Shown one piece after another: positions 18,835-40,421 of a stretch of 40,421 bases of DNA. Under the pieces are notes generated by a model. That model was not told the DNA's origin. It saw only the letters and a list, made by a program, of their open reading frames with translations, and made no database searches. Source of the stretch: Candidatus Omnitrophota bacterium (lineage in GTDB: Bacteria; Omnitrophota; Gorgyraeia; Gygaellales; Profunditerraquicolaceae); assembly GCA_025453395.1 (NCBI GenBank), contig JALOQK010000003.1, positions 146,711-187,131 of the forward strand. Direction: 5' to 3'. Made by a program: the position numbers and the translations under genes. How positions within the stretch are numbered: position 1 is the first letter of the stretch; every line of letters starts with the position of its first letter.

Positions 18835-19995
18835 ATGAAAATATGCCTAGTCTCATTATTTCACCCTCAAAGAACTTCCGGCGGGATACAAACTTATTGC
18901 CGATGGCTAATAAAATACTTTGAAGATTCAAACATTGAATACCTCTATATAAGCCCTTTTGACTGCCCCAAGATTCTTGTTTTGCCGGTTTTTTCTCTGC
19001 GGCATATTCTTTTGAAACATTTTAAGACAATAAATATTATTTGGTACAGATCTTGGCATTATTTTTTCTTGAAGATTGCCTTAACCAAAAGATTAAAAGG
19101 GCAAGATATAGATATTGTGCAGGCGCATTGCCCGTTAAGCGCGTTAGCAGCTCTCAAGATAAGAAACAAATTAAAAGCTTCTTGGCCGGTTATTTTAAGG
19201 CTGGGGCTCAATGTTTCGCAGGCAGAGGAAGAAGCCACAAATGATAATATAAAAAGAGGCGGGGTGTATTATAAAAAGATAAAAAATTTAGAAAAAAACG
19301 CTTTTTTAGGCGTGGATGCGATTATCTTTAATTCATTCTATCTGAAAGATAAAGTCCTAAAAGAATATCCGGATTTATTAAATAAAAAAACAATAGTAAT
19401 TCATAATGGGGTGGGCGTTGTTGATAGTAACCGGTCTTTTAAAGAAAAATCTGAAGTTTATAAGTTTATTAATATAGGAGAATTGAGCTTACGCAAGAAT
19501 CAACAATTTTTAATTCATTTGATTAAGGATTTGTCAGGAAAAATACCGAATATAGAGTTGCATTTGGTTGGGCAGGGCCAAGAACATAAAAATTTAAAGA
19601 TGTTAGCTAAGCGCCTTAGGGTTGAGGATAAAATTATTTTTCACGGGCTTGTGCAGGATGCGGCAAAATTAATTCCCGGGAAGTTCCTTTATCTACACTC
19701 TGCCCTTGAAGAATCTTATGGAATAGTCTTGGTGGAAGCTATGTCGCATGGGGTTATTCCTGTTTCTTTTGCAGTCGGTGGCGCGCAAGAAATTATTAAA
19801 CATGGATACAACGGTTTTTTGGTTTCTCCGGGAGATATTAAAACATACGCTGAAATAGTGACAGATTTTATATTAGATAAAGAAAAGCATGCAGTTATAA
19901 GTAACAATGCTAGAGAAGAGTTTAGGAGGAGGTTTGATTATAAGCTTATGGGGGAGGCGGTAATTAATTTTTATAAGATTTTAAAAGTATCCTGA
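18835..19995 (+). CDS. Glycosyltransferase family 4
   Basis: 386 aa GT-B fold enzyme. The N-terminal domain begins with a Rossmann strand and a GGIQTY acceptor loop. The C-terminal donor domain has GELSLRKNQ, VGQGQEHK, FHGLV and EESYGIVLVEAMSHGVIPVSF (E-x7-E motif for the nucleotide sugar). It transfers a sugar to surface glycan or lipid carrier in the cytoplasm. TATAAT (18822-18827) is only seven bases before the ATG, with no ribosome site, so a leaderless message is possible. The 3' end overlaps the convergent nucleotidyltransferase gene by 32 bases. Confidence 0.9.
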   Translation: MKICLVSLFHPQRTSGGIQTYCRWLIKYFEDSNIEYLYISPFDCPKILVLPVFSLRHILLKHFKTINIIWYRSWHYFFLKIALTKRLKGQDIDIVQAHCPLSALAALKIRNKLKASWPVILRLGLNVSQAEEEATNDNIKRGGVYYKKIKNLEKNAFLGVDAIIFNSFYLKDKVLKEYPDLLNKKTIVIHNGVGVVDSNRSFKEKSEVYKFINIGELSLRKNQQFLIHLIKDLSGKIPNIELHLVGQGQEHKNLKMLAKRLRVEDKIIFHGLVQDAAKLIPGKFLYLHSALEESYGIVLVEAMSHGVIPVSFAVGGAQEIIKHGYNGFLVSPGDIKTYAEIVTDFILDKEKHAVISNNAREEFRRRFDYKLMGEAVINFYKILKVS

Positions 19996-20968
19996 AGTAA
20001 TCTTTAGGGTGGATAAGAATAAGCCACTTTGCCCATGAATTAAAAGGCGCGGTTTTATTGATGCCGTTTTTAAATAAATAAAATAATATTTTATTTAATC
20101 TGCTTAAAGGTAATTCTTGCTTGAGCTGTTTGGTGAGCTTGGTATTAAATAGCGTTTCGCAGCAGTAAAGACTAAATACAAGCGGCCCCAGAATCTGCCA
20201 TTTTCTTGCCTGCCTTGCAATATACTTCCAGTTTAATCTATCTCCGTGTTGCAGTATGATTTCATTTATATCGCAAAAACGAAATAGCTTAACTTGCGGC
20301 CAATCAAAACGTACTTGAAGAGGAAGGGTCAAGAGCGTATCTTCCCATGACAATATCGTAACCTTGCGGTTATCAATAACAGCCTCCTTTGAATTCTTCC
20401 AGATAATTTCCATATCAATTGTGCTTAAATTAGGAGGTAAGAAATTCCAGTGCATCTCTATCATCAAGCCTGTTTTTCTAAAAGTATAAATATGCCCAGG
20501 TTGATAAGGATCCCGGATGTATCCCAATTGCTCCATAATTAAACACGCAGAATTTATGTTTTGCTCTTGGATCAGAAAATCAATATCCGCCATAATCCCG
20601 CGCAAGGCTGGGTTATAGTATAAGGTGTTTCCTAAAATAATCCCTTTTAATGGGATTATTTGTATGTTGTTTCTTAAAAACTCCTCATGAATGATCGAGA
20701 ACTCTTTCCATAACTTTAGATTTCTGCCTAACCCGCAGTAGTAATACTCTTGCAATCTATCTATAATTTCTTTTGGGATAGTATCATTTTTCTCTAGAGA
20801 GGAAAGCGCATGATAAGTTAAAGCGGTAATCCCGTTTGTTATGGATAAGCTAACAAATTTATCCCAATCCAAAGCCTTGCCGTATTTTTCTAATATTTTG
20901 GCAACAACGTTTTGGTCAATGGCGGTGCGGCTTAAAGAAAGAAGTAATTTAAATTCCGGCTCAAACAT
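19964..20968 (-). CDS. PF14907-type nucleotidyltransferase family protein
   Basis: 334 aa. PLKGIILGNTLY (about 106-117) followed by LRGIMADIDFLI with Asp128 and Asp130 is the active site of the uncharacterised nucleotidyltransferase family PF14907. In lasso peptide loci such a protein works after an HPr-kinase-like enzyme to attach sugars to a phosphorylated C-terminal Ser (pseudomycoidin); relatives also occur in exosortase-linked exopolysaccharide loci with HprK- and PqqD-like genes. Here it is last in a glycan operon, overlaps the GT4 by 8 bp and converges on the plus-strand GT4. Two HprK-like proteins and a PqqD-like protein are encoded 5-13 kb away, so a shared job is plausible but not proven. 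Confidence 0.8.
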   Translation of the reverse strand: MFEPEFKLLLSLSRTAIDQNVVAKILEKYGKALDWDKFVSLSITNGITALTYHALSSLEKNDTIPKEIIDRLQEYYYCGLGRNLKLWKEFSIIHEEFLRNNIQIIPLKGIILGNTLYYNPALRGIMADIDFLIQEQNINSACLIMEQLGYIRDPYQPGHIYTFRKTGLMIEMHWNFLPPNLSTIDMEIIWKNSKEAVIDNRKVTILSWEDTLLTLPLQVRFDWPQVKLFRFCDINEIILQHGDRLNWKYIARQARKWQILGPLVFSLYCCETLFNTKLTKQLKQELPLSRLNKILFYLFKNGINKTAPFNSWAKWLILIHPKDYFRILLKSYKN

Positions 20969-24896: not shown

Positions 24897-25079
24897 ATGA
24901 AAAAAAAGAAATGGGCGAGGCCACAGTTGATTGTAATAACCAGAGGAGATAGGCAGGAAATGGTTCTGCTTAAGTGTAAGACTTTTTCTGGCGGCTCAGG
25001 GACTGGCGCTTTTCATCCGGCGTGTCTGGGGGCTGATAAGGATTGTTGCGCGGGATGCTCGGATGTGATGGACAGCTAA
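24897..25079 (+). CDS. Putative RiPP precursor peptide 1
   Basis: 60 aa, after GGGAGGG. The leader KKWARPQLIVITRG then DRQEMVLLKCK (residues 4-28) aligns without gaps with two other small peptides at 27123 and 28504. The following tail is unrelated to theirs, Gly/Ser-rich, with Cys43, Cys50, Cys51 and Cys54, and ends in Ser60. Conserved leader plus variable Cys-bearing core is what a RiPP precursor looks like. It is the first gene of the operon and is separated by 89 bases from a radical SAM/SPASM gene. Thioether (Cys-alpha-carbon or Cys-beta-carbon) crosslinks are the likely type of product, by analogy with SPASM maturases of Cys-rich peptides; this is inference. Confidence 0.82.
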   Translation: MKKKKWARPQLIVITRGDRQEMVLLKCKTFSGGSGTGAFHPACLGADKDCCAGCSDVMDS

Positions 25080-25168
25080 CCTTAACCCTTGCCCCCTTGG
25101 ATTTTTGATAAATAAGTAGGGAATAGATACTTTCCAATCCAGTCCTTTCTAAGAAGAGATTTTTATAG

Positions 25169-27133
25169 ATGTTAAAAGATTACTCAACATTAAAGAAAGT
25201 AAGAAATTTACCCCGCCTGCCATTAGAAGGCAATATTGATTTTACTTACCGCTGCAATAATAATTGCCGGCATTGCTGGTTGCGTATACCTGCTGATGCA
25301 GCAGAGAAAAAAGAAGAACTCACCTTTACTGAAATAAGAAAGATTGTTGATGAAGCAAGAAAGTTAGGTTGCCGCAAGTGGTTTATTTCCGGAGGCGAAC
25401 CCATGCTTAGGCCGGATTTTGCGGAAATATTTGATTATCTTACCCGCGGCTCTGTTTCGTATTCCCTTAATACAAATGGTGCTTTAATCACTCCGGTTAT
25501 CGCAGGGCTTATGAAACGTAAAGGCTCTAAGATGGTGGCTTTGTATGGAGCCACTGCTAAAGTCCACGACTATATTACCCGTAATCCCGGATCCTTCGAG
25601 GCAACCATACGCGGATTTTATTATCTAAAGGAAGCTGGCACAGGTTTTACAGTCCAACTAATTCCAATGAAGGATAATTATCATCAGCTTCAGGAAATGA
25701 TAAAATTAGCTGAATCTTTGAGCAAGCACTGGAGAATCGGATCGGCATGGCTTTTTTTATCTGCCTGCGGCAGCGTGGAAAGAAACAAGGAAATAATACG
25801 CCAGAGGCTTGCGCCAAAAGAGGTAATTGAGCTGGATAAGCCGGATTTATCGTATGAAGAATCAAGCAGGGATTTACCTGTTCAAAATTGCAGCGCTGGA
25901 AACAAAAAATACCTGCTTTCCTCTTGCATAAAAACAAGGAATGATTTTCATATTGACCCTTACGGTAAAATGACCTTTTGTTCTTTTATTAAAGATCCTG
26001 CCTTGCGTTATGATTTAAGAAAAGGGAGTTTTCAAGAAGGCTGGGATAATTTTATCCCCTCTTTAGCTAACAAAATCAAGATTACCAAAGAATATAAAGA
26101 GCATTGCGGTTCCTGCGCGCTGCGTAAACACTGCCGCATTTGCCCGGTATATGCTTATTTAGAGCATCGCAAGTTTTCTGCCAAAATAGACTATCTCTGT
26201 GCCGTGGCAAAAGAAAATAATAAATTTAAAGAAAATTGGCAAGAAAAACACAGACGATATTATAAGATTGCCGGCATAACCATTCAGGTAGAATCTGATT
26301 TACCGATGGAAGAAAATACCTTTCATCCTAAATTTAAACATTTCGAAGTTGCCGGGCCCGGAGAAGATACTGTCCGCATAAGACATCATTTTTCTCTGCC
26401 GGATTTAGAGGGAAAAGATTTGGGAAAAGAATTATACCGCAAGCCGCCGTGGGCAATTTATAAAAATAATGGTTCTTGGATATATTTAGGTATTTCCCCG
26501 ATACTGGAAGATAAGCAGTTGCATCGGACGGTGGTTTTTAATTCTACTCACACTCGTGCCAGAATTTATAATGATAAGGAAGATGTCTTTCGCAAAGGTA
26601 ACTTGTATTCGCTAACACTGTTTCCTACTGACCAGATTCTCTTAGCCCGGCTTTTGGCAGATAGACAGGGTTGTTTCTTGCATTCCTGCGGAGTCAATCT
26701 TGACGGAAGGGGGCTGCTTTTTGCCGGTCATTCTAGCGCGGGAAAATCTACAATGGCTCAGATGTTAAAAGGAAAAGCCGAAATACTTTGTGATGATCGG
26801 ATTATAGTCAGAAAGCAAAAGTCGGAATTTAAAATCTATGGAACCTGGAGCCATGGAGATGTGCCTGATATCTCTAATGCTTCGACTGCTCTACAAGCAA
26901 TAATGTTTCTTGAGAAATTTGAGGATAATCAGCTTATTCTTATTAATAATAAGATGGAAATAGTTAAAAGATTATTGAGTTGTCTTATTAAGCCATTCCT
27001 TACTGTTGACTGGTGGGAGAAAACTCTTCCTTTAATTGAGAATATTGCTCAGAAAGTACCCTGCTATATATTGAGGTTTAATAAAAACGGTAAAGTTGTA
27101 GAGCTTTTAAGAGGAGGGCTGTATGGCCGATAA
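25169..27133 (+). CDS. Radical SAM/SPASM peptide maturase fused to HPr-kinase-like domain
   Basis: 654 aa. Residues 1-360 are radical SAM/SPASM: YRCNNNCRHCW with C29, C33, C36, ISGGEP for SAM, and a SPASM part with CSF, then CGSC, CRICP and YLC cysteines. Residues about 370-654 resemble HPr kinase/phosphorylase: LFAGHSSAGKST (about 518-529) is the P-loop, and CDDR (near 545) the acidic motif. The first part should crosslink the precursor; the second may phosphorylate a Ser on it, as HprK homologues do in paeninodin-type lasso peptide loci. Precursor 1 is just upstream, and precursor 2 starts within its last codons. No frame break is seen at the domain junction. Confidence 0.87.
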   Translation: MLKDYSTLKKVRNLPRLPLEGNIDFTYRCNNNCRHCWLRIPADAAEKKEELTFTEIRKIVDEARKLGCRKWFISGGEPMLRPDFAEIFDYLTRGSVSYSLNTNGALITPVIAGLMKRKGSKMVALYGATAKVHDYITRNPGSFEATIRGFYYLKEAGTGFTVQLIPMKDNYHQLQEMIKLAESLSKHWRIGSAWLFLSACGSVERNKEIIRQRLAPKEVIELDKPDLSYEESSRDLPVQNCSAGNKKYLLSSCIKTRNDFHIDPYGKMTFCSFIKDPALRYDLRKGSFQEGWDNFIPSLANKIKITKEYKEHCGSCALRKHCRICPVYAYLEHRKFSAKIDYLCAVAKENNKFKENWQEKHRRYYKIAGITIQVESDLPMEENTFHPKFKHFEVAGPGEDTVRIRHHFSLPDLEGKDLGKELYRKPPWAIYKNNGSWIYLGISPILEDKQLHRTVVFNSTHTRARIYNDKEDVFRKGNLYSLTLFPTDQILLARLLADRQGCFLHSCGVNLDGRGLLFAGHSSAGKSTMAQMLKGKAEILCDDRIIVRKQKSEFKIYGTWSHGDVPDISNASTALQAIMFLEKFEDNQLILINNKMEIVKRLLSCLIKPFLTVDWWEKTLPLIENIAQKVPCYILRFNKNGKVVELLRGGLYGR

Positions 27134-27296
27134 GAAAAAGAAATGGGCTGTTCCTCAGTTGATTGTTTTAACTAGGGGCAGAGCAGAAGAAAGGGTATTG
27201 TTAGTTTGTAAAAATCCGCCTAGCTCTTATGGAATGGCGGATGGTTCATGTAAAAAAGGAGGTGTTTATTTCTGTTCTGAAGATGGCTCCTCTTAG
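27123..27296 (+). CDS. Putative RiPP precursor peptide 2
   Basis: 57 aa, with GAGGAGGG (27111-27118) before ATG 27123; it overlaps the end of the maturase gene by 11 bases. Leader KKWAVPQLIVLTRG then RAEERVLLVCK (residues 6-30) matches precursors 1 and 3 at the same spacing. The tail has Cys43 and Cys51 among Gly, Ser, Lys and Tyr, and ends in Ser-Ser. Only two tail Cys, versus four in the other two peptides, suggests a smaller number of crosslinks. A second radical SAM gene begins seven bases after its stop. Confidence 0.82.
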   Translation: MADKKKKWAVPQLIVLTRGRAEERVLLVCKNPPSSYGMADGSCKKGGVYFCSEDGSS

Positions 27297-27303
27297 TTCA
27301 ATT

Positions 27304-28500
27304 ATGCAATACAGAAGTGCTTCTTTATCCCGCGGCTCTTATGTTGTAAGAAAAGATTTGAAGCAGGCTCATATTTGGCATAAATCAAAACTATTTTTAT
27401 ATCAGCTGGATATCGAATTGACAGAGCGTTGCAATAATAATTGCGTCCATTGCTGTATAAATCTGCCCGCCGGTGATTTAGAGGCAAAGAACAAAGAGCT
27501 TTCTACCGAAGAAGTCAAGAATATCCTTAAAGAAGCAGTTTCGCTGGGATGTTTGAGCGCAAGGTTTACCGGAGGCGAGCCGCTTTTAAGGGAAGATTTT
27601 GAAGAGTTGTATATTTTTGCGCGAAAACTGGGCTTAAAAGTCTTACTTTTTACAAACGCTACTTTAATTAACCAGCGTTTGGCGGATTTATTTTCGCGCA
27701 TTCCTCCGCTAGAGAGAATTGAGGTTACGCTTTATGGGATGAAAAAGCAATCTTATGAGGCAGTAACGCGCGTTCTAGGCTCATTTGAAGCGGCATGGCG
27801 CGGGATCCGCTTATTATTAGAGAAAAAAATACCTTTTATGGTCAAAGGCGCGCTCTTGCCGTATAATAAAGGCGAAATAGATGAATTTGAAGCTTGGGCA
27901 GCGAAAATTCCTTGGATGGATAGGCCGCCGTCATATTCTATGTTTTTTGATTTGCGCTGCCGGCGTGATGGCATGAAGAATAAATTAATAAAAAATCTAA
28001 GAGTAAGCCCCGAAGCCGGGTTAAAAATTCTTAACCGTAGAAAAGGTAAATACATAAAAGAAATGAAAGAGTTTTGCGCAAAATTTATCCGGCCTCCCGC
28101 AGATAAACTTTTTTCTTGCGGTTCTGGTAAAGGCGGAGGCTGCGTGGATGCTTACGGAAATTTTCAGCCCTGCATGTTATTAAGGCACCCGGATTACGTT
28201 TATGATTTAAGGAAGGGCTCTTTGAAAGATGCATTAGAGAATTTCTTCCCCAAGTTAAGGGAAATAAAAGCAACCAATTCTGATTATTTAAATCGCTGTG
28301 CGAAATGTTTTTTAAAAGGTTTGTGTGAACAATGTCCGGCAAAATCCTGGGCTGAGCATGGCACGCTGGATACGCCAGTGGAATATCTTTGCGAAGTTGC
28401 CCACGCGCAGGCTGAATTTTTAGGGTTGATAAAAGAAAATGAGAAAGCTTGGGAAGTTGCTGACTGGCAAGAGAGGATTGATAGATTTAGCGGGAGGTAA
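27304..28500 (+). CDS. Radical SAM/SPASM peptide maturase 2
   Basis: 398 aa from ATG 27304, the first start after the precursor 2 stop; an in-frame ATG at 27283 would overlap the precursor, and the frame is open back to 27229, so the start is uncertain. ERCNNNCVHCC gives C43, C47, C50; FTGGEP follows. The C-terminal SPASM part has CGSGKGGGC, CMLL, then CAKCFLKGLCEQCPA and YLCE cysteines. It is a paralogue of the maturases at 25169 and 30149 (same RCNNNC-x-HC and same Cys order). It probably matures precursor 2 or 3, which flank it closely on both sides. Confidence 0.88.
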   Translation: MQYRSASLSRGSYVVRKDLKQAHIWHKSKLFLYQLDIELTERCNNNCVHCCINLPAGDLEAKNKELSTEEVKNILKEAVSLGCLSARFTGGEPLLREDFEELYIFARKLGLKVLLFTNATLINQRLADLFSRIPPLERIEVTLYGMKKQSYEAVTRVLGSFEAAWRGIRLLLEKKIPFMVKGALLPYNKGEIDEFEAWAAKIPWMDRPPSYSMFFDLRCRRDGMKNKLIKNLRVSPEAGLKILNRRKGKYIKEMKEFCAKFIRPPADKLFSCGSGKGGGCVDAYGNFQPCMLLRHPDYVYDLRKGSLKDALENFFPKLREIKATNSDYLNRCAKCFLKGLCEQCPAKSWAEHGTLDTPVEYLCEVAHAQAEFLGLIKENEKAWEVADWQERIDRFSGR

Positions 28501-28503
28501 AAA

Positions 28504-28677
28504 ATGAAGCAAAAGAAATGGGCGAAGCCGAAGTTGACAGTATTAGTCAGAGGTTGTAATAATGAAAAGGTATTATTTGTCTGTAAGGTAGGTGGTGCAG
28601 GCCCAGATATTGGCCAGTGTGGATGCGAGACAAATGCTTCTGGTTGTCCGAAATGCAGCTTAAATATTGGCTCTTAA
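28504..28677 (+). CDS. Putative RiPP precursor peptide 3
   Basis: 57 aa, three bases after the maturase stop, with GGGAGG (28491-28496) upstream. Leader KKWAKPKLTVLVRG then CNNEKVLFVCK (residues 4-28) aligns with the other two precursors with no gaps. The tail carries Cys39, Cys41, Cys48 and Cys51 and ends GS. An additional Cys18 sits inside the leader. Two small hairpins (28679-28694 and 28700-28717) follow the stop before the PqqD-like gene; they could stabilise the upstream message so that precursor is made in excess. Confidence 0.82.
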   Translation: MKQKKWAKPKLTVLVRGCNNEKVLFVCKVGGAGPDIGQCGCETNASGCPKCSLNIGS

Positions 28678-28730: not shown

Positions 28731-29033
28731 ATGAAAATAAGCGTAAGCTTTGATAAAAGCTACAAACCATCCGAAGATGTGGTGGCGCGCCAGGTGCAGG
28801 GAGAATTCATAATTATCCCCATAACCAGCGGAGTAGGGGATGAAGAAGACGCAATATTTACGCTCAATGAGACCGGAAAGGCTGTCTGGGATAAATTAGA
28901 CGGTAAAAAGACCTTAAAAAGCATAATAAATGAACTTGTTAAAGAATTTGATGCCCCTCTTGAAGAAATAGAAAAAGATATTTTAGGAATAACGAGTGAG
29001 TTGTTAAAGAAAAAAATGTTGGTTGAGGCTTAA
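28731..29033 (+). CDS. PqqD-like RiPP recognition protein
   Basis: 100 aa, with ACAGGAGG upstream. Early beta strands (KPSEDVVARQVQGEFIIIPI), then FTLNETGKAVWDKLDGKKTL and two helices ending in ELLKKKMLVEA, are the PqqD fold: N-terminal strands and a winged helix. PqqD-like domains (RiPP recognition elements) hold the leader peptide and present it to the radical SAM enzyme. As one free-standing copy in a locus with three precursors, it probably serves all of them through their common leader. It sits directly after precursor 3. Confidence 0.92.
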   Translation: MKISVSFDKSYKPSEDVVARQVQGEFIIIPITSGVGDEEDAIFTLNETGKAVWDKLDGKKTLKSIINELVKEFDAPLEEIEKDILGITSELLKKKMLVEA

Positions 29034-29037
29034 TGAA

Positions 29038-30144
29038 GTGGCTTGTAAAAACTTTTGCTACCAGGAATTCTGCGCACAGATTTATCAATATGCTCCTGTT
29101 TGCGACGATATAGATAAGAAAAATATCATTTCTTCGTCTTCCTATCCAAATAATCCGTGGGAAACTGGTTTAGTTCTACAAATGTTTGAATTAGGCAGAT
29201 TATTTGTAGAAAAGAAGATGGTTAAATTTTCTCCTGAAGGGGCCTGCATGTATCCTTGCATTCGGCCGAAAGATATTTTACACATTGAGCCCAAAAGCGT
29301 AAGCGAAATTAGAGTTGGAGATATCGCGGTTTACCGTAAGGCAGGCCGATTATTTGCTCATCGCACGATTGCCAAAGGAAATAACGAGGGCCAAGATTAT
29401 ATTATTACCCGTCCGGATACCGCTTATTCCGGAAATGACGGAGCCAGTTTTGAACAGGATATTTTAGGAATAGTTAGCCGCATTCAAAGGCGAGGGGAAA
29501 CTTTAAATACTGTAAAAAAAGATTACCCTTTTGTAAAACGGTTTTTCTTTAATCTTTACCTTAAGCATTATTACTTTAAGCAATATCTGTGGCGTAAAAT
29601 AATTGATTTTATCAGTTATATACAACAGTATAAAGCTTACCGCTGGTTTGCCAGGTTTTTATTCATAAAGTCAAGCAAAGAAGTCCAATTTTCTTTGCAG
29701 GCGCCCATTAGCCCTAAAGCAAACAGCAAATTTTATAAGGAATTCTCTAAAACGGAACTTTTGGAATCTTTAAGCGGAGAGTTTCCTGTTTCGAAGTGGA
29801 CGATTGCGTTAGAGATAAATTCAAAGCCGGCAGGTTATTTATCATTTGTTTTTAAACCTAAAGATTGCCCGTTTTCCGGCTGGTGGCTTTATGAATATAA
29901 GTTAAGGCTTAGATACAGAAGGACTAACTTAGAAGAAAAGCTTTTGCGAGAAGCGGATGATTTGTTTAAGCAGGCTGGCGCAACAGGGATATCCGTAAGC
30001 GTTCTTAAAGGCATGAATTTAGAGAAAAAGATTTTAAAGAACTTGGGGTTTAGAGAAATATCAACGCAAAAAGAAGTTTTCTTTAAAAATAAAGAGCCTG
30101 TTGAGCGCCTGATAATGAAAAAAGAAATTGGATCAAAGATTTAA
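29038..30144 (+). CDS. S26 signal-peptidase-like domain fused to GNAT-like domain
   Basis: 368 aa from GTG 29038 (TGAGG nine bases upstream); the frame is open back to TTG 29023. EGACMYPCIRPKDIL (from residue 67) corresponds to the G-x-SM-x-P nucleophile motif of S24/S26 peptidases, but with Cys70 where Ser is usual. VGDIAVYRKAGRLFAHRTI supplies the GDI strand and a His (108) like the ER/archaeal type, and ITRPDTAYSGND the later acidic motif. Residues about 230-360 look like a GNAT acetyltransferase (YEYKLRLRYRRTNLEEKLL, then KNLGFRE). A role in leader removal or peptide acylation is possible. The first 50 residues contain four Cys and are unrecognised. Confidence 0.72.
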   Translation: MACKNFCYQEFCAQIYQYAPVCDDIDKKNIISSSSYPNNPWETGLVLQMFELGRLFVEKKMVKFSPEGACMYPCIRPKDILHIEPKSVSEIRVGDIAVYRKAGRLFAHRTIAKGNNEGQDYIITRPDTAYSGNDGASFEQDILGIVSRIQRRGETLNTVKKDYPFVKRFFFNLYLKHYYFKQYLWRKIIDFISYIQQYKAYRWFARFLFIKSSKEVQFSLQAPISPKANSKFYKEFSKTELLESLSGEFPVSKWTIALEINSKPAGYLSFVFKPKDCPFSGWWLYEYKLRLRYRRTNLEEKLLREADDLFKQAGATGISVSVLKGMNLEKKILKNLGFREISTQKEVFFKNKEPVERLIMKKEIGSKI

Positions 30145-30148
30145 TTCT

Positions 30149-31276
30149 ATGAAAGATAAATTTATTTCCAAAATTCCTTTGCCTAAATTTAAGCTTTGGG
30201 ATAAGTTTAAGGACGCAGATAGAAAACTGGTTTCTTTTGATCTGGAAATCACTGCCCGCTGTAACAACAATTGCAGGCATTGCTATGTAAATTTATCTTG
30301 TCAAGACAGCAAGGCAAAATCGCGCGAACTTACCCTTGTACAAATAAAACATATAATTGACCAAGCCGCGGATTTAGGTGCCCTTTGGTGCCTTATTACC
30401 GGAGGAGAGCCTTTTTTAAGAAAAGATTTCTTTGATATTTATTTGTACATAAAGAAAAAAGGGCTTTTGGTCTCGGTTTTTACCAATGCCACTTTAATCA
30501 ATGAGAAGCATATAGATTTCTTCAAGAAATATCCTCCCAGAGATATTGAGGTTACTGTTTATGGGGTTACTAAAGAGGTGTATGAGCGCGTTACTAGGAT
30601 CCCGGGGTCTTTTAAAGCTTTTAGGCGGGGGCTGGATTCTTTATTGAAAAATAAAATACCAGTGCGGCTTAAGGCCATGGCGCTTCGTTCAAATGTTAAA
30701 CAGCTGCCGCAAATCGCGCGATTCTGCCGCCAGAAAACCAAAGATTATTTTCGTTTTGATCCGTTATTGCATCTTCGTTTCGACAGGAATCAAAAAAGGA
30801 ACGAAGAAATTAAATCTGAACGCTTGTTACCAGCAGAAATCGTAGCAATTGAGAAAGCGGACTCCGAGCGCTCGCAGGCATTACAAAAAAGCTGCGATAA
30901 ATTTATTATCCCGGAATTATCCCATACCGGATGCAACCATCTTTTTCACTGCGGAAGCGGCAATGGGAGTTTTTATGTCAGTTTTGACGGGTATTTTAAA
31001 TTATGCTCTTCACTTAATCATCCCGATTGTATGTATGACTTAAAAAAAGGATCTTTGGAGCAGGCTTACAATAAATTCGCGCTTAAAGTGCGGGATATGC
31101 GTTCAAATAACCCGGAGTTTCTTGAGAAATGCCGTAAGTGTGAACTTGTCAATCTTTGTCTCTGGTGCCCGGCGCATGCTTATCTTGAAACCGGCAAACT
31201 GGATACGCCGGTTGAGTATTTCTGCGAGGTAGCCCACCAGCGCGCAGAGCCATTATTAAATAACAGATTAAAGTGA
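30149..31276 (+). CDS. Radical SAM/SPASM peptide maturase 3
   Basis: 375 aa from ATG 30149, just after the S26/GNAT stop. ARCNNNCRHCY gives C38, C42, C45; ITGGEP follows. The SPASM end (CGSGNGS, CSSL, CRKCELVNLCLWCPA, EYFCE) mirrors maturase 2 closely, including the HPD-x-x-YDL-x-KGSL segment. No precursor gene lies right beside it, so it may act on one of the three upstream peptides, perhaps as a second step. The following GT2 gene starts within or a few bases after its stop. Confidence 0.88.
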   Translation: MKDKFISKIPLPKFKLWDKFKDADRKLVSFDLEITARCNNNCRHCYVNLSCQDSKAKSRELTLVQIKHIIDQAADLGALWCLITGGEPFLRKDFFDIYLYIKKKGLLVSVFTNATLINEKHIDFFKKYPPRDIEVTVYGVTKEVYERVTRIPGSFKAFRRGLDSLLKNKIPVRLKAMALRSNVKQLPQIARFCRQKTKDYFRFDPLLHLRFDRNQKRNEEIKSERLLPAEIVAIEKADSERSQALQKSCDKFIIPELSHTGCNHLFHCGSGNGSFYVSFDGYFKLCSSLNHPDCMYDLKKGSLEQAYNKFALKVRDMRSNNPEFLEKCRKCELVNLCLWCPAHAYLETGKLDTPVEYFCEVAHQRAEPLLNNRLK

Positions 31277-32294: not shown

Positions 32295-33344
32295 ATGCGT
32301 TTCGGATTAGACTTACCGGACACAATTCAGTTTTATAGTGCCAAGTTCTCTTTTTATGGATTTGTAATCCAGGTCAAGTGCCAGGATATGCAGACCCTGC
32401 AGAAGATTCAAAGAGACTATTCATTCTTCTTAAATCAAGAAGCATTCCCTGAGGTATTTTTTGAGGTTTTTAACTATGCCCCTGATTACAGCAAGCTTCC
32501 TTGCGTTACGGCGCATCTATACACTCCCCGCAATATCTGTTACAAACAAGAAGGAGTTTCTTTTCTTGATTATTTCGGCAAGGGGTTAATGATTATTAAT
32601 CAGGATAGAGATGTTTATCAGGTTTTTTGCGCGGATGAACATTTAAGGCACGAGATCGTTTTTTTGTCTATTATGTCGCTTGTGGGAGAGAACCTTGATT
32701 CAAGAAATATTCATCGGGTGCACGGCTTAGGCCTTGCGGTAAATAATCAGGGTGTTTTGATCCTTTTGCCAAGCGGTGGCGGAAAAACTACTTTTTTATT
32801 GGATATTATTAAGAATCAATCCGTTAGGCTTTTATCAGAAGATTCCCCGCTTATAGACGCATCCGGCAGGATGTTGGCGTTTCCTCTTAGGATCGGTGTT
32901 TCGCATGAAAATAAGCCTCGCGATATCCCTGAAGGGCAAATGCATCTTATCAATAGAATGGAGTTTGGGTCAAAGTATGTGATAGATGTGGATTTTTTCA
33001 AAGATAAAATCGCCAAGGAGCCGGTTGTCCTGCGGCATATTCTTTGCGGGGTAAGATGTTTAGGCAATCAGTCCGGGATCAAGAAGATATCCAAATATTA
33101 TGCGTTTAAGCAGTTGGTGCAGAATTCAGTAGTCGGATTGGGCCTGTACCAGGGTGTTGAGTTTTTGTTTCAGAGGGGGCTCTGGGAGGCGCTTAAGAAA
33201 AGCGGCGTTATTCTTTCACGGCTTAAAAATAGCTGTAAAATCCTCTCTCAAGCCAGCTCCTATTCGTTTATCATCGGGCCTGATCGCAGCAAGAACGTGA
33301 AGGAATTCATGGATTTTTGCAGGGCCCATGCGGAACGCGTATAA
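32295..33344 (+). CDS. HPr-kinase-like P-loop protein
   Basis: 349 aa from ATG 32295 (GCAGGG upstream, after the GT2 stop); ATG 32265 is an alternative that overlaps the GT2 gene. LLPSGGGKTTF (about 157-167) is the P-loop, LLSEDSPLI the acidic metal/catalytic segment. The N-terminal 150 residues, with HRVHGLGLAVNN just before the kinase core, match HprK-related proteins found next to PqqD-like genes. True HPr kinase phosphorylates HPr-Ser46, but no HPr is in view. In peptide loci such proteins phosphorylate a C-terminal Ser. It is last in the operon and is followed by a palindromic terminator-like sequence. Confidence 0.8.
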   Translation: MRFGLDLPDTIQFYSAKFSFYGFVIQVKCQDMQTLQKIQRDYSFFLNQEAFPEVFFEVFNYAPDYSKLPCVTAHLYTPRNICYKQEGVSFLDYFGKGLMIINQDRDVYQVFCADEHLRHEIVFLSIMSLVGENLDSRNIHRVHGLGLAVNNQGVLILLPSGGGKTTFLLDIIKNQSVRLLSEDSPLIDASGRMLAFPLRIGVSHENKPRDIPEGQMHLINRMEFGSKYVIDVDFFKDKIAKEPVVLRHILCGVRCLGNQSGIKKISKYYAFKQLVQNSVVGLGLYQGVEFLFQRGLWEALKKSGVILSRLKNSCKILSQASSYSFIIGPDRSKNVKEFMDFCRAHAERV

Positions 33345-35413: not shown

Positions 35414-36796
35414 TTACTTATCAAAAATTTCTTTGGTAATTACTCTGGCTATATTTTCTGCTAAAAGCTGGTTACCTTTAGCAGTGCAGTGTCCGAAATC
35501 GCCTCCGAACATATCCCTAAAATAGGCCTGGTAATTTTCCTTATCCACAGCGTTTTTAAACACGGCTTCATTATCAACAAATATAATTCCCTCCGGATTG
35601 GGGAATATCTGTTTGAGCGGCAATACGCTACGCATAGGATACTGCACGCAGACTAGGCGCGTACCCTGTTCTTTCAAGATCTGCCACAGCCTATGGTAAT
35701 TATTGATTGTTTCAGCTGCGTAATAAGCTTTTACGGCCTTTGCTGTAAGGAAATCGCTCAAATAATAATTACCTTGAGCGCGGTAAAGCGAAGAAAGCGC
35801 TCCATAAATCTTCGCTGTCCTTATATTAAATTGAATTGCTTTTTGCAAAAGTTTTTCCGCCTTTTCATATTCATTTTGTTTCAGGTAGATTGGATAAAGT
35901 TCAAGATATGGTCTATCATTATAGGGGTCGAGCTCATTGGCCTTTTTAAAAAATTCTTCAGCCAAGGCATATTCGCCAAGGCATTGTTTGACAAGGCCCA
36001 TCCAGAAATATGCATCATAATTGGATGGGTTTACTTTTATTGCTTCCTCAAATGCTTGGTTCATATCAGTAAAACGCTGCTGGTAATAATAAAGCCAGAT
36101 CAGATATCCGTAAGCCCTGCCTCTAGGGTTCAAAACGATTGCTTTCTTTAACTCTATTTCTGCTTCGGCGCGTTTTCCAAGGGAATTATATAGGTGTCCA
36201 AGATTAGCGCATTGTTCTGAGAGCTCCAAAGAATTATTTACAGGGTAAGAATTATTTGTAGAATTCGAAGAATATTTTTTATCAGCGGTTTGTATTTCTT
36301 GTAAAATTCGATTGATATTTAGCCAAAGATAAACCCCTGCTTTATATATCCTCAAGGAAGTCAAAAATGGTTTTTTAACCGAAGTATTTAATAGTTCCAC
36401 GGGGATATAAGCTATTTGGCCATTGTCCATCCTGTCATTAATCCCCATCATTGCGATTACCATATCCGGTCTATACTGTTTTATATTTTGCTCAACATTT
36501 AAAAGTAAATGCGATGTGCCAATTCCGGGTAACCCACAATCTACCACGCTAAATTTAATGCCGAATTTATTTTGGTTTAGTATTCTTTCAAGAAAAGAAG
36601 GATATTCTCCCGCTGTTGTTGATTCTCCGATGCACATGATACGATAAGCACCAGTGTTCTTTATAGAACAGTAATTCCTATATTTTTGAATACTGATAAA
36701 CACAAAGCCAGCTGTTCGTAAGCCCGCTTCGATTAATGCTGTCGACAGTACAAGCCCCAGTATTATTAAGGAGATTTTCTCTAAAACAGGCTTCAT
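35414..36796 (-). CDS. SGNH/GDSL-like hydrolase with TPR insertion, membrane-anchored
   Basis: 460 aa from ATG 36796, which overlaps the stop of the fusion gene (ATGA). One N-terminal membrane helix (about 7-27) precedes an SGNH domain: block I CIGESTTAGEY (Ser nucleophile in GES rather than GDS), block III MMGINDRM, and block V GDFGHCTAKGN near the C-terminus with the Asp-His pair. Between blocks III and V lie about five TPR-like 34-residue repeats (residues about 195-370; e.g. YNSLGKRAEAEIELKKAI, MGLVKQCLGEYALAEEFF). It is likely periplasmic and may O-acetylate or deacetylate surface glycan; the TPRs would bind a partner. Confidence 0.82.
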   Translation of the reverse strand: MKPVLEKISLIILGLVLSTALIEAGLRTAGFVFISIQKYRNYCSIKNTGAYRIMCIGESTTAGEYPSFLERILNQNKFGIKFSVVDCGLPGIGTSHLLLNVEQNIKQYRPDMVIAMMGINDRMDNGQIAYIPVELLNTSVKKPFLTSLRIYKAGVYLWLNINRILQEIQTADKKYSSNSTNNSYPVNNSLELSEQCANLGHLYNSLGKRAEAEIELKKAIVLNPRGRAYGYLIWLYYYQQRFTDMNQAFEEAIKVNPSNYDAYFWMGLVKQCLGEYALAEEFFKKANELDPYNDRPYLELYPIYLKQNEYEKAEKLLQKAIQFNIRTAKIYGALSSLYRAQGNYYLSDFLTAKAVKAYYAAETINNYHRLWQILKEQGTRLVCVQYPMRSVLPLKQIFPNPEGIIFVDNEAVFKNAVDKENYQAYFRDMFGGDFGHCTAKGNQLLAENIARVITKEIFDK

Positions 36797-39700
36797 CTTA
36801 CGATATTTTCCTCCAAATATATGAATTCGATACTGCATTTGCAAAAATCTAATGTGCAGGGCATAGCTTTATCAAGACATCCAAATTCTTTATCTTTGAC
36901 GTTGCCAATTCTAGTTTCGTCACTAGCGCATCTAAAAATTGAGCCATCAGGAGAAACTCGGAAATATGCCATACCCGCTCTGCATAATTTACCTCTAGGG
37001 CTTATATTATTTAAATAATAATCATTAGAGTGATCTTTAATTAACAAAGAAATTAAATCTTTTTCGGCAGTGGTGTATTCCTTGGGGTATGTTCGGGATT
37101 GATATTCTCCCATAAATGGAAGGATGCATACACCAGTGCCTATCTCAAGAAATCTTTTCTGGAAATAAGCTAACTTATCTAATAGTGGAGGATAAGCCAC
37201 TATTATTGGCTCAATAACCCATCCGTTATCTATTAAAGCGCGCATTTTCTTAAGATATTCATCTAAATCTGCGCAATGAGGATGGAAAGATGGATGTAAT
37301 GCTAATCTCTGGGGGGAGAAGATGTTAACGACCTTTCTTATATCAAATGATAAATTAGTGCATATCTCCACGCGGTGCCATAAAGTAATTTTTTTCATTA
37401 ATTCAAAGAAGGCAGGGTAGACAGTTGGTTCCCCTCCGGCAATAACTATTTTAATCTCACCGTATTTCTGATACATTCTTCTCCAGAAGCTTACCCATTC
37501 CTGGAAACTAACTATTAGCTTTCCAGATAAGTCATAGGCAGGGTCACTGTAACTATTGTTAAGACAATAGGGGCATTTATAATTACATTTAAAGGGGAAG
37601 TCCCAGCCCGCAGCTAATCCTGCTGAAGGGATATTAATATTTTCATCAATTGGTTCTTCTTCAGGTTCCATGGTTGATAACATTAGCCTTCTGCGCAACA
37701 ATTCTTCTTGTTCAAAAGTTTTATTCACATCGTAATAATCTTTAATTACCTTTTTGGCATTGCTTGCCATTGTGTTCCTTTTAGTTTTATCCTGTAAAAG
37801 ATCCAAAACCTTATTTGCGAAGTCTTCTCTTGATGAGGCGATATAGAGATCTTTCCCGTTAACAGCTTTTAACCCACTAGCCGCTTCTTCTGTAGCGACA
37901 ACCGGGACTCCCGCAGCCATGGCTTCAAGTATTTTGACTTTTATCCCAGAGCCTAAACGGATAGGTACTACCAAAATTTTTGCCCTTGCGAGATATTCTT
38001 TCACATCCCCAACCTCTCCTGTTACAGAAATATTCTCATTGTCTTTAATGCCGAATTCTTCTTTTCTTAGGCCTGAGCCTATTATATTGAATTTAAATTT
38101 GGGGTTATTTTCCTTAATAAGCGGGAGTATCTTCTTAATAAAATATCGCAACCCATCGATATTGGGATAATGCAACATGTGTCCGATAAATAAAATATCG
38201 ATGTCCCTGGGGCAATCAGAATGTGGTTTGTAATTATCAACATCAATGCTTATTGGGATTATGTTGATTTTATCAGCAGATGTAGCTTTTTGGATAATCC
38301 TCGCGTCTTCATCCGTAAAGGCAATAATCTTATCAAAATAGCGGTAAATATTTTTCTGGAATCTTTTAAAATTCATCCAGTCAAGAAACCGGAAGATCTT
38401 CCCAAAGGCCGGTTTTTCACATGATTTATTCAAGGTATAAATACTGGCATCGTGTTCTACCAATATTTTTGGAATGCCAGAGATGGACTGGGCATAATAT
38501 GCCATATTGGCATATTCAACCTGGACTAAATCTATAGGATGAGCTTGCAGGCAATTCTTAATTGTCTCTTCCATTTCCTTAGAATAAAAATATTTTACAA
38601 ATATAGGCAGGGAAATCTTATCAAAACGGCTCTTCCAGGTAGGATCACAAACAACCGTATGAACCTGTTTACATAGTTTATTTAATTCCGGCAGGTATTG
38701 TTTTTCTTCAAGATGCCTTATGAAAGAAATTAAAATAATATCATATTTTTCAGAAAGTTTATTAAGCGAGGTAAACATCTTGACCTGGCCGCCAGACTTT
38801 ACCGGGAGCGGGAGGAAAGGGGTAATTAACAAAAGGGTTTTGTTGCTTTGCGGGTTATTGGTTAAAAGCTTATTCTTGATGTTGATAGAGTAATTAAAAA
38901 ACTCAAGCGGCTTAGACAATACTTCTTTATCATTGCGTAAGATATGCTGTTCTTCTTTCATCCGATGAGCGATAGTTAATGGCAGCCAGTTTAATGCCAT
39001 CAAGTATCCCCTTAAGAACTGTTTTCGTTCCATCTTTCTTCTTAAGAAATACAAGGGCAAGAATAAGAAATGCTGCATTGTCATATTAAAATCGGTGATA
39101 TTCTTCCAGGTAAACAATAGCTCATTCTTTATCTCAATCGAACGTTTGAATGGCCCGATTGTCCCGTGGACTTTATGGAAGACTGTGCTTTTAGGCTCAT
39201 AAACAACGCGCAGGTTTCTTTTTAATGCCCTGTAGGATAGATCTATATCCTCCCAGCAGTATGGTTTAAAGATTTCATCAAGCCCTCCCAATGCCAAGAA
39301 ATCACTTTTTCTGAAGCAAACCGCACATCCGATACCAAATACTGTTGGTTGAGCAGTATTTATCACGGGATATCCATGAATGTCGCGTTCGTTCCAAATG
39401 TGAATATACCCATGTTGAAAATCTCCTACATACATGCCGGTGGCAAATGTTTTTCTGTCCCATTCGTACAGCCGAGGCGAAACCGAAAAGATGTCTTCAT
39501 TATCAAGATGCGCTATCAGGGGTTTATGAAAATCATCAGAAACAATAATGTCGTTATTAAGCAAAATTATTATTTTATTTCTTGCTTGTTTTATTCCTAG
39601 GTTGCAACTTGCTCCAAAGCCAAGATTTTTCTTATTGCAGATTAAAGTAACTTGCGGAAAATTTTCCCTAACAAAAGCTACGCTATCGTCAGAACTGGCA

Positions 39701-40421
39701 TCATCAACAATTAAAACTTCGTGTTTGTTATCTTGGAAATCACGTATCTTGAATATTGACGAAAGACATTCCTTTAAATAATGACAACCACTATAATTCG
39801 GGATAACAATAGTGATGTTTTTATCTTTATTGTAAATTCTACTTTGGTTAAGTTTGCTGGTATTATTCTTTCGTAATAATATCAATGGCGCCCAGAGCGT
39901 TCTTTCGATCAGCAGAATCATGAAGATAAAAAGATTCATTAAATACAGTGGAGCCAAAATAATAAGATAAACTAATTCTCTAGAAGCGTATTTAATAAAA
40001 CGTACGGCTTCCTTGGCTTTCCATAAAAACAGCCACATGGGCCGTAATAAAAATCGGTATCCTTCAGAAGAATAGATACTCTCAAGTTCTTTTTGTTTCT
40101 GTTGTAGAGTCCTCTCAACTGCAGAAAGATTATCCTGAATCCTGGATATGTTTTGACTTAGTTGCCCGAGTTGATCATGAGCAAGGGATAACTCATCTTT
40201 AGTTTTAGCTGCGGTTGATTTAGATTCAGAAAGCTCTGTTTCTTTTTTAGCCAAGAGGCCTTTAGTCTGGCTAAGTTCTGTTTGCGCTTGAGATAATTCT
40301 TTCTGGGTTAAAGAGAGGTTTTCATTTAGGCTGCCTAAGGTTGATCTGGATTCAGAAAGCTCTGTTTCTTTTTTAGCCAGCAGGTCTTTGGCCTGGGTAA
40401 GCTCTGTCTGGGCTTGAGATA
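36793..40421 (-). CDS. Coiled-coil / GT2 / GT4 / radical SAM fusion protein, 5' end cut by window
   Basis: More than 1200 aa, open to the right edge. In order: heptad coiled coil with a 42-residue repeat (40419 to about 40050); a membrane-hugging hydrophobic segment (about 39990-39880); a GT2 domain (ITIVIPNYSG, LIVDDASSDDS, LLNNDIIVS, CWEDIDLSYR; about 39820-39000); a GT4 domain (LLITPFLPLP, FIGHMLHYPN, KILEAMAAGVPVVAT; about 38870-37690); and a radical SAM domain with CNYKCPYC (cysteines encoded at 37587-37564), IAGGEP, and late CRAG, FRCA and CKC cysteines. No stop or frame shift interrupts it. It probably builds and modifies a surface glycan. The TTG at 40254 is not the true start. Confidence 0.85.
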   Translation of the reverse strand, partial: SQAQTELTQAKDLLAKKETELSESRSTLGSLNENLSLTQKELSQAQTELSQTKGLLAKKETELSESKSTAAKTKDELSLAHDQLGQLSQNISRIQDNLSAVERTLQQKQKELESIYSSEGYRFLLRPMWLFLWKAKEAVRFIKYASRELVYLIILAPLYLMNLFIFMILLIERTLWAPLILLRKNNTSKLNQSRIYNKDKNITIVIPNYSGCHYLKECLSSIFKIRDFQDNKHEVLIVDDASSDDSVAFVRENFPQVTLICNKKNLGFGASCNLGIKQARNKIIILLNNDIIVSDDFHKPLIAHLDNEDIFSVSPRLYEWDRKTFATGMYVGDFQHGYIHIWNERDIHGYPVINTAQPTVFGIGCAVCFRKSDFLALGGLDEIFKPYCWEDIDLSYRALKRNLRVVYEPKSTVFHKVHGTIGPFKRSIEIKNELLFTWKNITDFNMTMQHFLFLPLYFLRRKMERKQFLRGYLMALNWLPLTIAHRMKEEQHILRNDKEVLSKPLEFFNYSINIKNKLLTNNPQSNKTLLLITPFLPLPVKSGGQVKMFTSLNKLSEKYDIILISFIRHLEEKQYLPELNKLCKQVHTVVCDPTWKSRFDKISLPIFVKYFYSKEMEETIKNCLQAHPIDLVQVEYANMAYYAQSISGIPKILVEHDASIYTLNKSCEKPAFGKIFRFLDWMNFKRFQKNIYRYFDKIIAFTDEDARIIQKATSADKINIIPISIDVDNYKPHSDCPRDIDILFIGHMLHYPNIDGLRYFIKKILPLIKENNPKFKFNIIGSGLRKEEFGIKDNENISVTGEVGDVKEYLARAKILVVPIRLGSGIKVKILEAMAAGVPVVATEEAASGLKAVNGKDLYIASSREDFANKVLDLLQDKTKRNTMASNAKKVIKDYYDVNKTFEQEELLRRRLMLSTMEPEEEPIDENINIPSAGLAAGWDFPFKCNYKCPYCLNNSYSDPAYDLSGKLIVSFQEWVSFWRRMYQKYGEIKIVIAGGEPTVYPAFFELMKKITLWHRVEICTNLSFDIRKVVNIFSPQRLALHPSFHPHCADLDEYLKKMRALIDNGWVIEPIIVAYPPLLDKLAYFQKRFLEIGTGVCILPFMGEYQSRTYPKEYTTAEKDLISLLIKDHSNDYYLNNISPRGKLCRAGMAYFRVSPDGSIFRCASDETRIGNVKDKEFGCLDKAMPCTLDFCKCSIEFIYLEENIVR
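40168..40419 (-). repeat. 126-bp tandem repeat encoding a coiled coil
   Basis: Two copies (40419-40294 and 40293-40168). Each starts SQAQTEL, then a TQAKDLL- or SQTKGLL-type heptad, then AKKETELSES; 42 residues, or six heptads. The second copy diverges towards its end. More copies may lie beyond the window edge. Confidence 0.8.

Follow-up and report, generated by a model that had tools for sequence, protein, structure and literature searches.

Among ribosomally synthesised and post-translationally modified peptides (RiPPs), lasso systems of the paeninodin type possess an HprK-like kinase that phosphorylates the conserved last Ser of the precursor (PMC9266682), and the LPP systems reported in May 2026 bring together an HprK-like kinase, a nucleotidyltransferase (NTP transferase), a RiPP recognition element (RRE), a signal-peptidase-like protease and a capsule locus, with no radical S-adenosylmethionine (SAM) enzyme described (PMC13381572). 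The SynChlorMet cassettes of NCBIfam (TIGR04248-04251, ScmC/D/E/F) comprise radical SAM/SPASM proteins, a PqqD protein and the HprK-like ScmC; their name was not found in the open-licence papers searched. Here we describe a cassette that shares all three of these SynChlorMet parts, encoded in a stretch of 40,421 nucleotides (hereafter the window) from contig JALOQK010000003.1 of a Candidatus Omnitrophota bacterium, whose genome measures 1.62 Mb and is 97% complete. In this cassette, three small Cys-rich precursors ending in Ser accompany a fusion of a radical SAM/SPASM protein with an HprK-like domain, and sequence comparison across relatives makes it likely that this is a radical SAM RiPP system whose C-terminal Ser/Thr is phosphorylated by the HprK-like domain.

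With the paeninodin and pseudomycoidin lasso systems (PadeK, PsmK, PsmN) the locus shares a kinase of the HKDD type, a C-terminal Ser that is conserved among its precursors as in the paeninodin type, a PqqD-type RRE, a [Y/W]xxPxL leader and an NTP transferase (PMC9266682, PMC13381572). It differs from paeninodin-type loci in its radical SAM/SPASM enzymes, to one of which the kinase is fused. No lasso B2 leader peptidase (Transglut_core3) was found in the whole genome, and no asparagine-synthetase-like macrolactam cyclase among the window proteins scanned (14.6-40 kb; the rest of the genome was not searched). By analogy, the system probably acts as the paeninodin tail kinase does, in a radical SAM setting.

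The C-terminal serine of the precursors

The window encodes three precursor peptides:
24897..25079, + strand: precursor peptide 1, 60 amino acids; leader KKKKWARPQLIVITRG..VLLKCK; C-terminus CSDVMDS
27123..27296, + strand: precursor peptide 2, 57 amino acids; C-terminus CSEDGSS
28504..28677, + strand: precursor peptide 3, 57 amino acids; C-terminus CSLNIGS

All three open reading frames (ORFs) have a Shine-Dalgarno-like, purine-rich sequence on their 5' side and share a leader, K-x-KKWA-x-P-x-L-x-V-x-x-RG-x3-E-x-VL-x2-CK, but not their cores. The initial annotation had drawn attention to otherwise dissimilar tails ending DS, SS and GS, and this holds: the ORFs are real, and their terminal Ser is written with three different codons (AGC, TCC and TCT in precursors 1, 2 and 3, respectively). 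Ser makes up ~10% of core residues, giving a chance of three Ser tails out of three of ~0.097^3, or ~1 in 1000, for the window precursors; the window alone is therefore weak proof of a Ser-tail rule, and the relatives decide. Pfam models gave no match to the three window precursors and NCBIfam models none to any precursor tested, and relatives were not found in viral contigs scanned with precursor 3.

Relatives were collected with three models restricted to the leader and containing nothing of the tail: a hidden Markov model (HMM; W..CK) and two others. Seed peptides for classes 2 and 3 were chosen by position and Cys content, ignoring the tail. Of a first set of 26 precursors, taken from the window and from genomes related to it, 24 ended in Ser. 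Across the three leader classes, 197 unique closed ORFs yielded 167 with Ser, 13 with Thr and 17 with another residue at the C-terminus, the last group being mostly truncated or frameshifted. When only intact precursors were counted (core of at least 15 amino acids with at least two Cys; n = 166), 151 ended in Ser, 12 in Thr and three in other residues, one of the three being a visible frameshift, while Ser constitutes only 10-17% of core residues in the precursor set. Homologues with random last residues, the outcome set beforehand as speaking against the idea, were not seen: Ser or Thr closes 163 of the 166 intact precursors. The terminal-Ser observation is thus confirmed and lies far beyond chance. 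Across relatives the terminal Ser is encoded by all six Ser codons, and we therefore rejected a DNA-level bias as its source.

Class-1 precursors follow the leader consensus KKWxxPxLxVLxRGxxEExVLxxCK; position -2 varies, and a Cys at -7 in 78 of 107 produces a C-x5-S ending. The two further leader classes (YxKPxxxxxxLxPEEAVLxxCK and FxPxITRVKLNPEQAVLxCxC) also comprise Ser-tailed peptides, and the three together span Omnitrophota and about ten other phyla, methanogens included. Precursors are now supplied for radical SAM/HprK cassettes of uncultured phyla and methanogens.

Some genomes hold expanded or scattered precursor sets. The second leader model returned 63 and 95 first-pass candidates in genomes G246 (loci L200, L226-L230) and G285 (L212, L233, L235), respectively; 21 were scored in each, and those read were nearly all Ser-tailed. 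In G026, ~16 class-1 precursors are scattered over the genome (L078-L088), several of them single amid housekeeping genes, and one modification cassette was found (L079). Elsewhere, a PqqD domain and a precursor occupy one open frame of 230-234 codons (L089 8449, L092 144), which points to fusion of an RRE with the precursor that it serves.

The fused HprK-like kinase and its clade

The fusion protein, encoded from 25169 between precursors 1 and 2, has two halves:
25169..26263, + strand: radical SAM/SPASM half (residues 1-365; CNNNCRHC; PF04055 E 6e-20; NirJ2/ScmF-like)
26264..27133, + strand: HprK-like kinase half (residues 366-654; His in FLHSC; Walker A GHSSAGKST; CDDR)

The C-terminal domain matches PF07475 at E 3e-4, under Pfam's own cut-off. 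Its AlphaFold model (pLDDT 94, the predicted local distance difference test score) has the fold of the HprK/PEPCK superfamily, complete with P-loop, and structure comparison matched it to HprK/P and phosphoenolpyruvate (PEP) carboxykinase (1kkl, Z 10.7, root-mean-square deviation 2.8 over 122 residues). The His, P-loop and CDDR of the kinase half align with those of L. casei HprK, and these features (P-loop GxSxAGKS/T) are kept in almost all homologue rows. The His, P-loop Lys and Asp-Asp so retained form the HKDD set, which proved indispensable to lasso kinases under site-directed mutagenesis (PMC9266682; see also PMC10368454). Fold, Walker A and Asp-Asp are shared with HPr kinase/phosphorylase as well, but the domain described here is fused to a radical SAM enzyme and linked to peptide precursors, and its TIGR00679 score is 24.2 bits against a cut-off of 240.

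A search of the fusion protein against the genomes of 84,980 species identified 49 loci with relatives, most matched over their full length, in Omnitrophota, WOR-1/Saganbacteria, WOR-3, Aminicenantes, Acidobacteriota, Victivallaceae, Deltaproteobacteria, Chloroflexota, Chlorobi, Poribacteria, KSB1 and methanogens. Class-1 precursors found with the leader-only HMM adjoin most of these loci, and nearly all are Ser/Thr-tailed. A fusion together with a Ser-tailed precursor is also present in a named cultured strain, Desulfofustis glycolicus DSM 9705 (L127). Within 384 Omnitrophota genomes the full fusion occurs in 12 and class-1 precursors in 16, with all 12 fusion genomes among the 16 (hypergeometric p about 1e-19); since homologue rows share descent, this and other p-values given here are too strong and overstate independence. 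The kinase is part of the radical SAM fusion in class 1 and usually a separate adjoining gene in the other two classes, each leader class being tied to one HprK-like kinase clade. Two fusion proteins have a degenerate P-loop (L128 9866, L142 3537), of which that of L142 is directly followed by an intact kinase gene.

The nearest NCBIfam family of the kinase domain is ScmC, matched by 44 of 45 domains but under the cut-off in our kinase. Some of the genomes considered here also carry ScmC genes that score over the cut-off, frequently next to genes for S26 and PF14907 proteins, yet of the small Cys-rich ORFs next to ScmC-type kinases (picked by eye) only 5 of 15 have a Ser/Thr tail. In a quick maximum-likelihood tree rooted only at its midpoint, kinases of the three Ser-tailed classes split from ScmC-type kinases with support of 100. 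Because the kinases of Ser-tailed systems separate from those whose neighbouring peptides lack the rule, the tail rule appears to track the kinase clade rather than the mere presence of an HprK-like gene, and this correspondence of clade and tail residue opens the claim to direct test. Several ScmC-type loci (L257, L259, L260, L262-L268) encode small Cys-rich peptides with repeated CxxGxxA-like units, which are candidate precursors of SynChlorMet-like cassettes.

Proposed pathway and alternative explanations

A terminal Ser next to a radical SAM-kinase fusion suggests phosphorylation of the last residue, as in some lasso peptides. In the pathway that we propose, the PqqD-type RRE (28731) would bind the WxxPxL leader, following the rule of lasso and LPP systems, and two or three radical SAM/SPASM enzymes would modify the Cys-rich core, probably introducing Cys-based cross-links. 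The fused HprK-like domain would then phosphorylate the C-terminal Ser hydroxyl, with Thr tolerated, a step strongly suggested by comparison and presumably common to all three leader classes, in two of which the kinase is usually its own gene. A role of the terminal Ser as phosphate acceptor would explain a last residue that stays constant amid drifting neighbours. By analogy with LppS, the signal-peptidase-like protein would cut off the leader, and a PF14907 protein, where present, may place a nucleotide or sugar on the phosphate, as in pseudomycoidin. If the proposed pathway is true, a single residue suffices to predict where the peptides of a large, unnamed group are modified.

The candidate enzyme for this second step on the phosphorylated tail lies ~4 kb from precursor 1, on the opposite strand:
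19964..20968, - strand: PF14907 nucleotidyltransferase (PF14907 E 9e-47), the sole copy in the genome

Its identification in the initial annotation as a PF14907-type protein is borne out by this score. Its best relative (42%) sits beside another fusion cassette, in genome G290. PF14907 was found in 54 of 59 precursor-bearing genomes versus 124 of 325 others (p 3e-15); it is usually near the class-2 kinase, and class-2 loci often have it side by side with the kinase and S26 genes. This association lends support to a possible pseudomycoidin-like second step. The end-capping of radical SAM peptides envisaged in the initial annotation is thereby upheld in part: the tail rule, the catalytic set and the kinase phylogeny argue for the phosphate, while for the sugar step the evidence is one of genomic association. 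A wider scheme, in which PF14907 joins the tail phosphate to a nucleotide or sugar, the cross-linked peptide becomes linked by its end to capsule or cell surface, and the rule holds clan-wide, seems to us rather doubtful.

Several observations weigh against tail phosphorylation. ScmC-type systems own kinase, S26 and NTP transferase genes yet have no Ser tail; PF14907 is near only about half of the class-1 cassettes; the Chlorobiaceae fusion of L128 has a degenerate P-loop, yet the weak precursor candidate there is Ser-tailed; and genomes G023 and G024, both fragmented assemblies, hold Ser/Thr-tailed precursors with no kinase of the family found. Moreover, the HprK-like kinases LppK and BsfK phosphorylate core Ser3, not the tail (PMC13381572, PMC10368454), so that an HprK-like domain alone leaves the site unfixed. 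Their example favours an explanation in which the HprK-like domain acts on an internal Ser and the terminal Ser serves a peptidase, an exporter or a radical SAM enzyme as a signal of recognition or of the end; further Ser residues in the cores and a Ser-enriched position -6 in class 1 (24 of 107) speak for it too. We nevertheless think this unlikely: the last Ser column is more fixed than any internal one, 12 of the 15 tails without Ser have Thr instead, as a hydroxyl acceptor predicts, the tail rule tracks kinase clade, and the phosphate of paeninodin-type systems goes to the conserved last Ser (PMC9266682).

Glycosyltransferases and O-antigen ligases flank the cassette, polysaccharide export genes adjoin class-2 loci, and in some loci S26 is fused to a GNAT-like domain, all of which could fit modification of the last Ser by another enzyme (a glycan ester or peptide bond made by capsule-type genes, or GNAT acylation), with the kinase-like domain activating the peptide and leaving no phosphate. 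However, the GNAT-like domain is missing from most cassettes (8 matches versus 47 for S26) and the kinases of LPP and paeninodin, which occur in capsule loci of a similar kind, genuinely phosphorylate Ser (PMC13381572); this explanation is improbable. That the terminal Ser is a functionless relic of shared ancestry or base composition is scarcely credible: leaders and descent are indeed common within a class, but the cores do not align, all six Ser codons occur at the tail, and the rule is shared by three leader classes and by distantly related phyla, archaea among them. Phosphorylation of the C-terminal Ser/Thr by the HprK-like domain is accordingly the reading that we prefer.

Relation to described systems and remaining genes

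The remaining genes considered lie downstream of precursor 2:
27304..28500, + strand: second radical SAM/SPASM protein (PF04055 E 5e-21; ORF from 27229, likelier start near 27304, after the precursor stop)
28731..29033, + strand: PqqD-family protein, likely RRE (leader-binding adaptor; PF05402 E 1e-14)
29023..29667, + strand: archaeal-type signal peptidase-like (S26) domain, likely leader peptidase (TIGR02228 E 1e-7, under cut-off)
29668..30144, + strand: GNAT-like C-terminal domain of the S26 protein (fold judged by eye; recurs in other loci)
30128..31276, + strand: third radical SAM/SPASM protein (PF04055 E 7e-23; SPASM match weak)
32295..33344, + strand: second HprK/PEPCK-fold protein (ORF from 32217; first 32 residues modelled poorly), no conserved cassette member

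As in a radical SAM/SPASM RiPP cassette, the CxxxCxxC radical SAM enzymes thus have as neighbours a PqqD-type RRE and small Cys-rich ORFs with a leader. Loci of the two further leader classes, reached through distant Omnitrophota kinase matches, have PqqD, radical SAM, small ORF, HprK, S26 and PF14907 genes consecutively. With LPP the locus has in common a discrete RRE, an HprK-like kinase and an NTP transferase (LppN being compared by enzyme type, not as PF14907), a predicted leader protease of the archaeal signal peptidase type, a setting among capsule-type genes and, in two class-3 loci, an MsbA-like exporter. In contrast, LPP are phosphorylated at core Ser3 and said to be limited to Bacillota (PMC13381572), and their leader YxxPxVLxHQxIxFETxxS is not matched by the class-1 consensus. 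The LPP leader peptidase is SpI-type with Ser/His/Asp; the window S26 domain has Cys where Ser is usual (GACMYP), and most cassettes have Ser there. Against the NCBIfam cut-offs, the window proteins score far below throughout (bits: ScmC 38.7/125, ScmD 29.3/100, ScmE 85.9/400, ScmF 101.3/400), and ScmC forms a separate kinase branch whose neighbouring peptides lack the Ser tail.

Membership in the lasso, LPP or SynChlorMet systems was rejected on the missing B2 peptidase, the different leader and the scores under cut-off, respectively; most likely, the system belongs with the phosphorylated RiPPs of the paeninodin/LPP kind as their radical SAM branch, and so connects RiPPs made by radical SAM enzymes with the phosphorylated peptides, linear and lasso, lately described from capsule loci. 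The initial annotation put forward as new the pairing of radical SAM peptides with HprK-type tail phosphorylation, and no description of it was found in the open-licence papers searched; the machinery was already known, and the pairing, tail rule and breadth appear new.

Of the two HprK-like domains first assigned to the locus, that of the fusion stands; the 32217 protein has the right fold but no regular partner. Its relatives occur in 7 of 334 Omnitrophota genomes, including the window's own, and none of the other six is a class-1 genome, and it was rejected as a second cassette kinase for want of a link to class-1 genomes elsewhere. A G-x-CMYP S26 domain fused to a GNAT-like domain occurs in the window (29023-30144) and at L099 9406 and L102 5874. 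At the far end of the window, an ORF of 1153 amino acids (36793-40254, - strand) combines two glycosyltransferase domains with a radical SAM domain.

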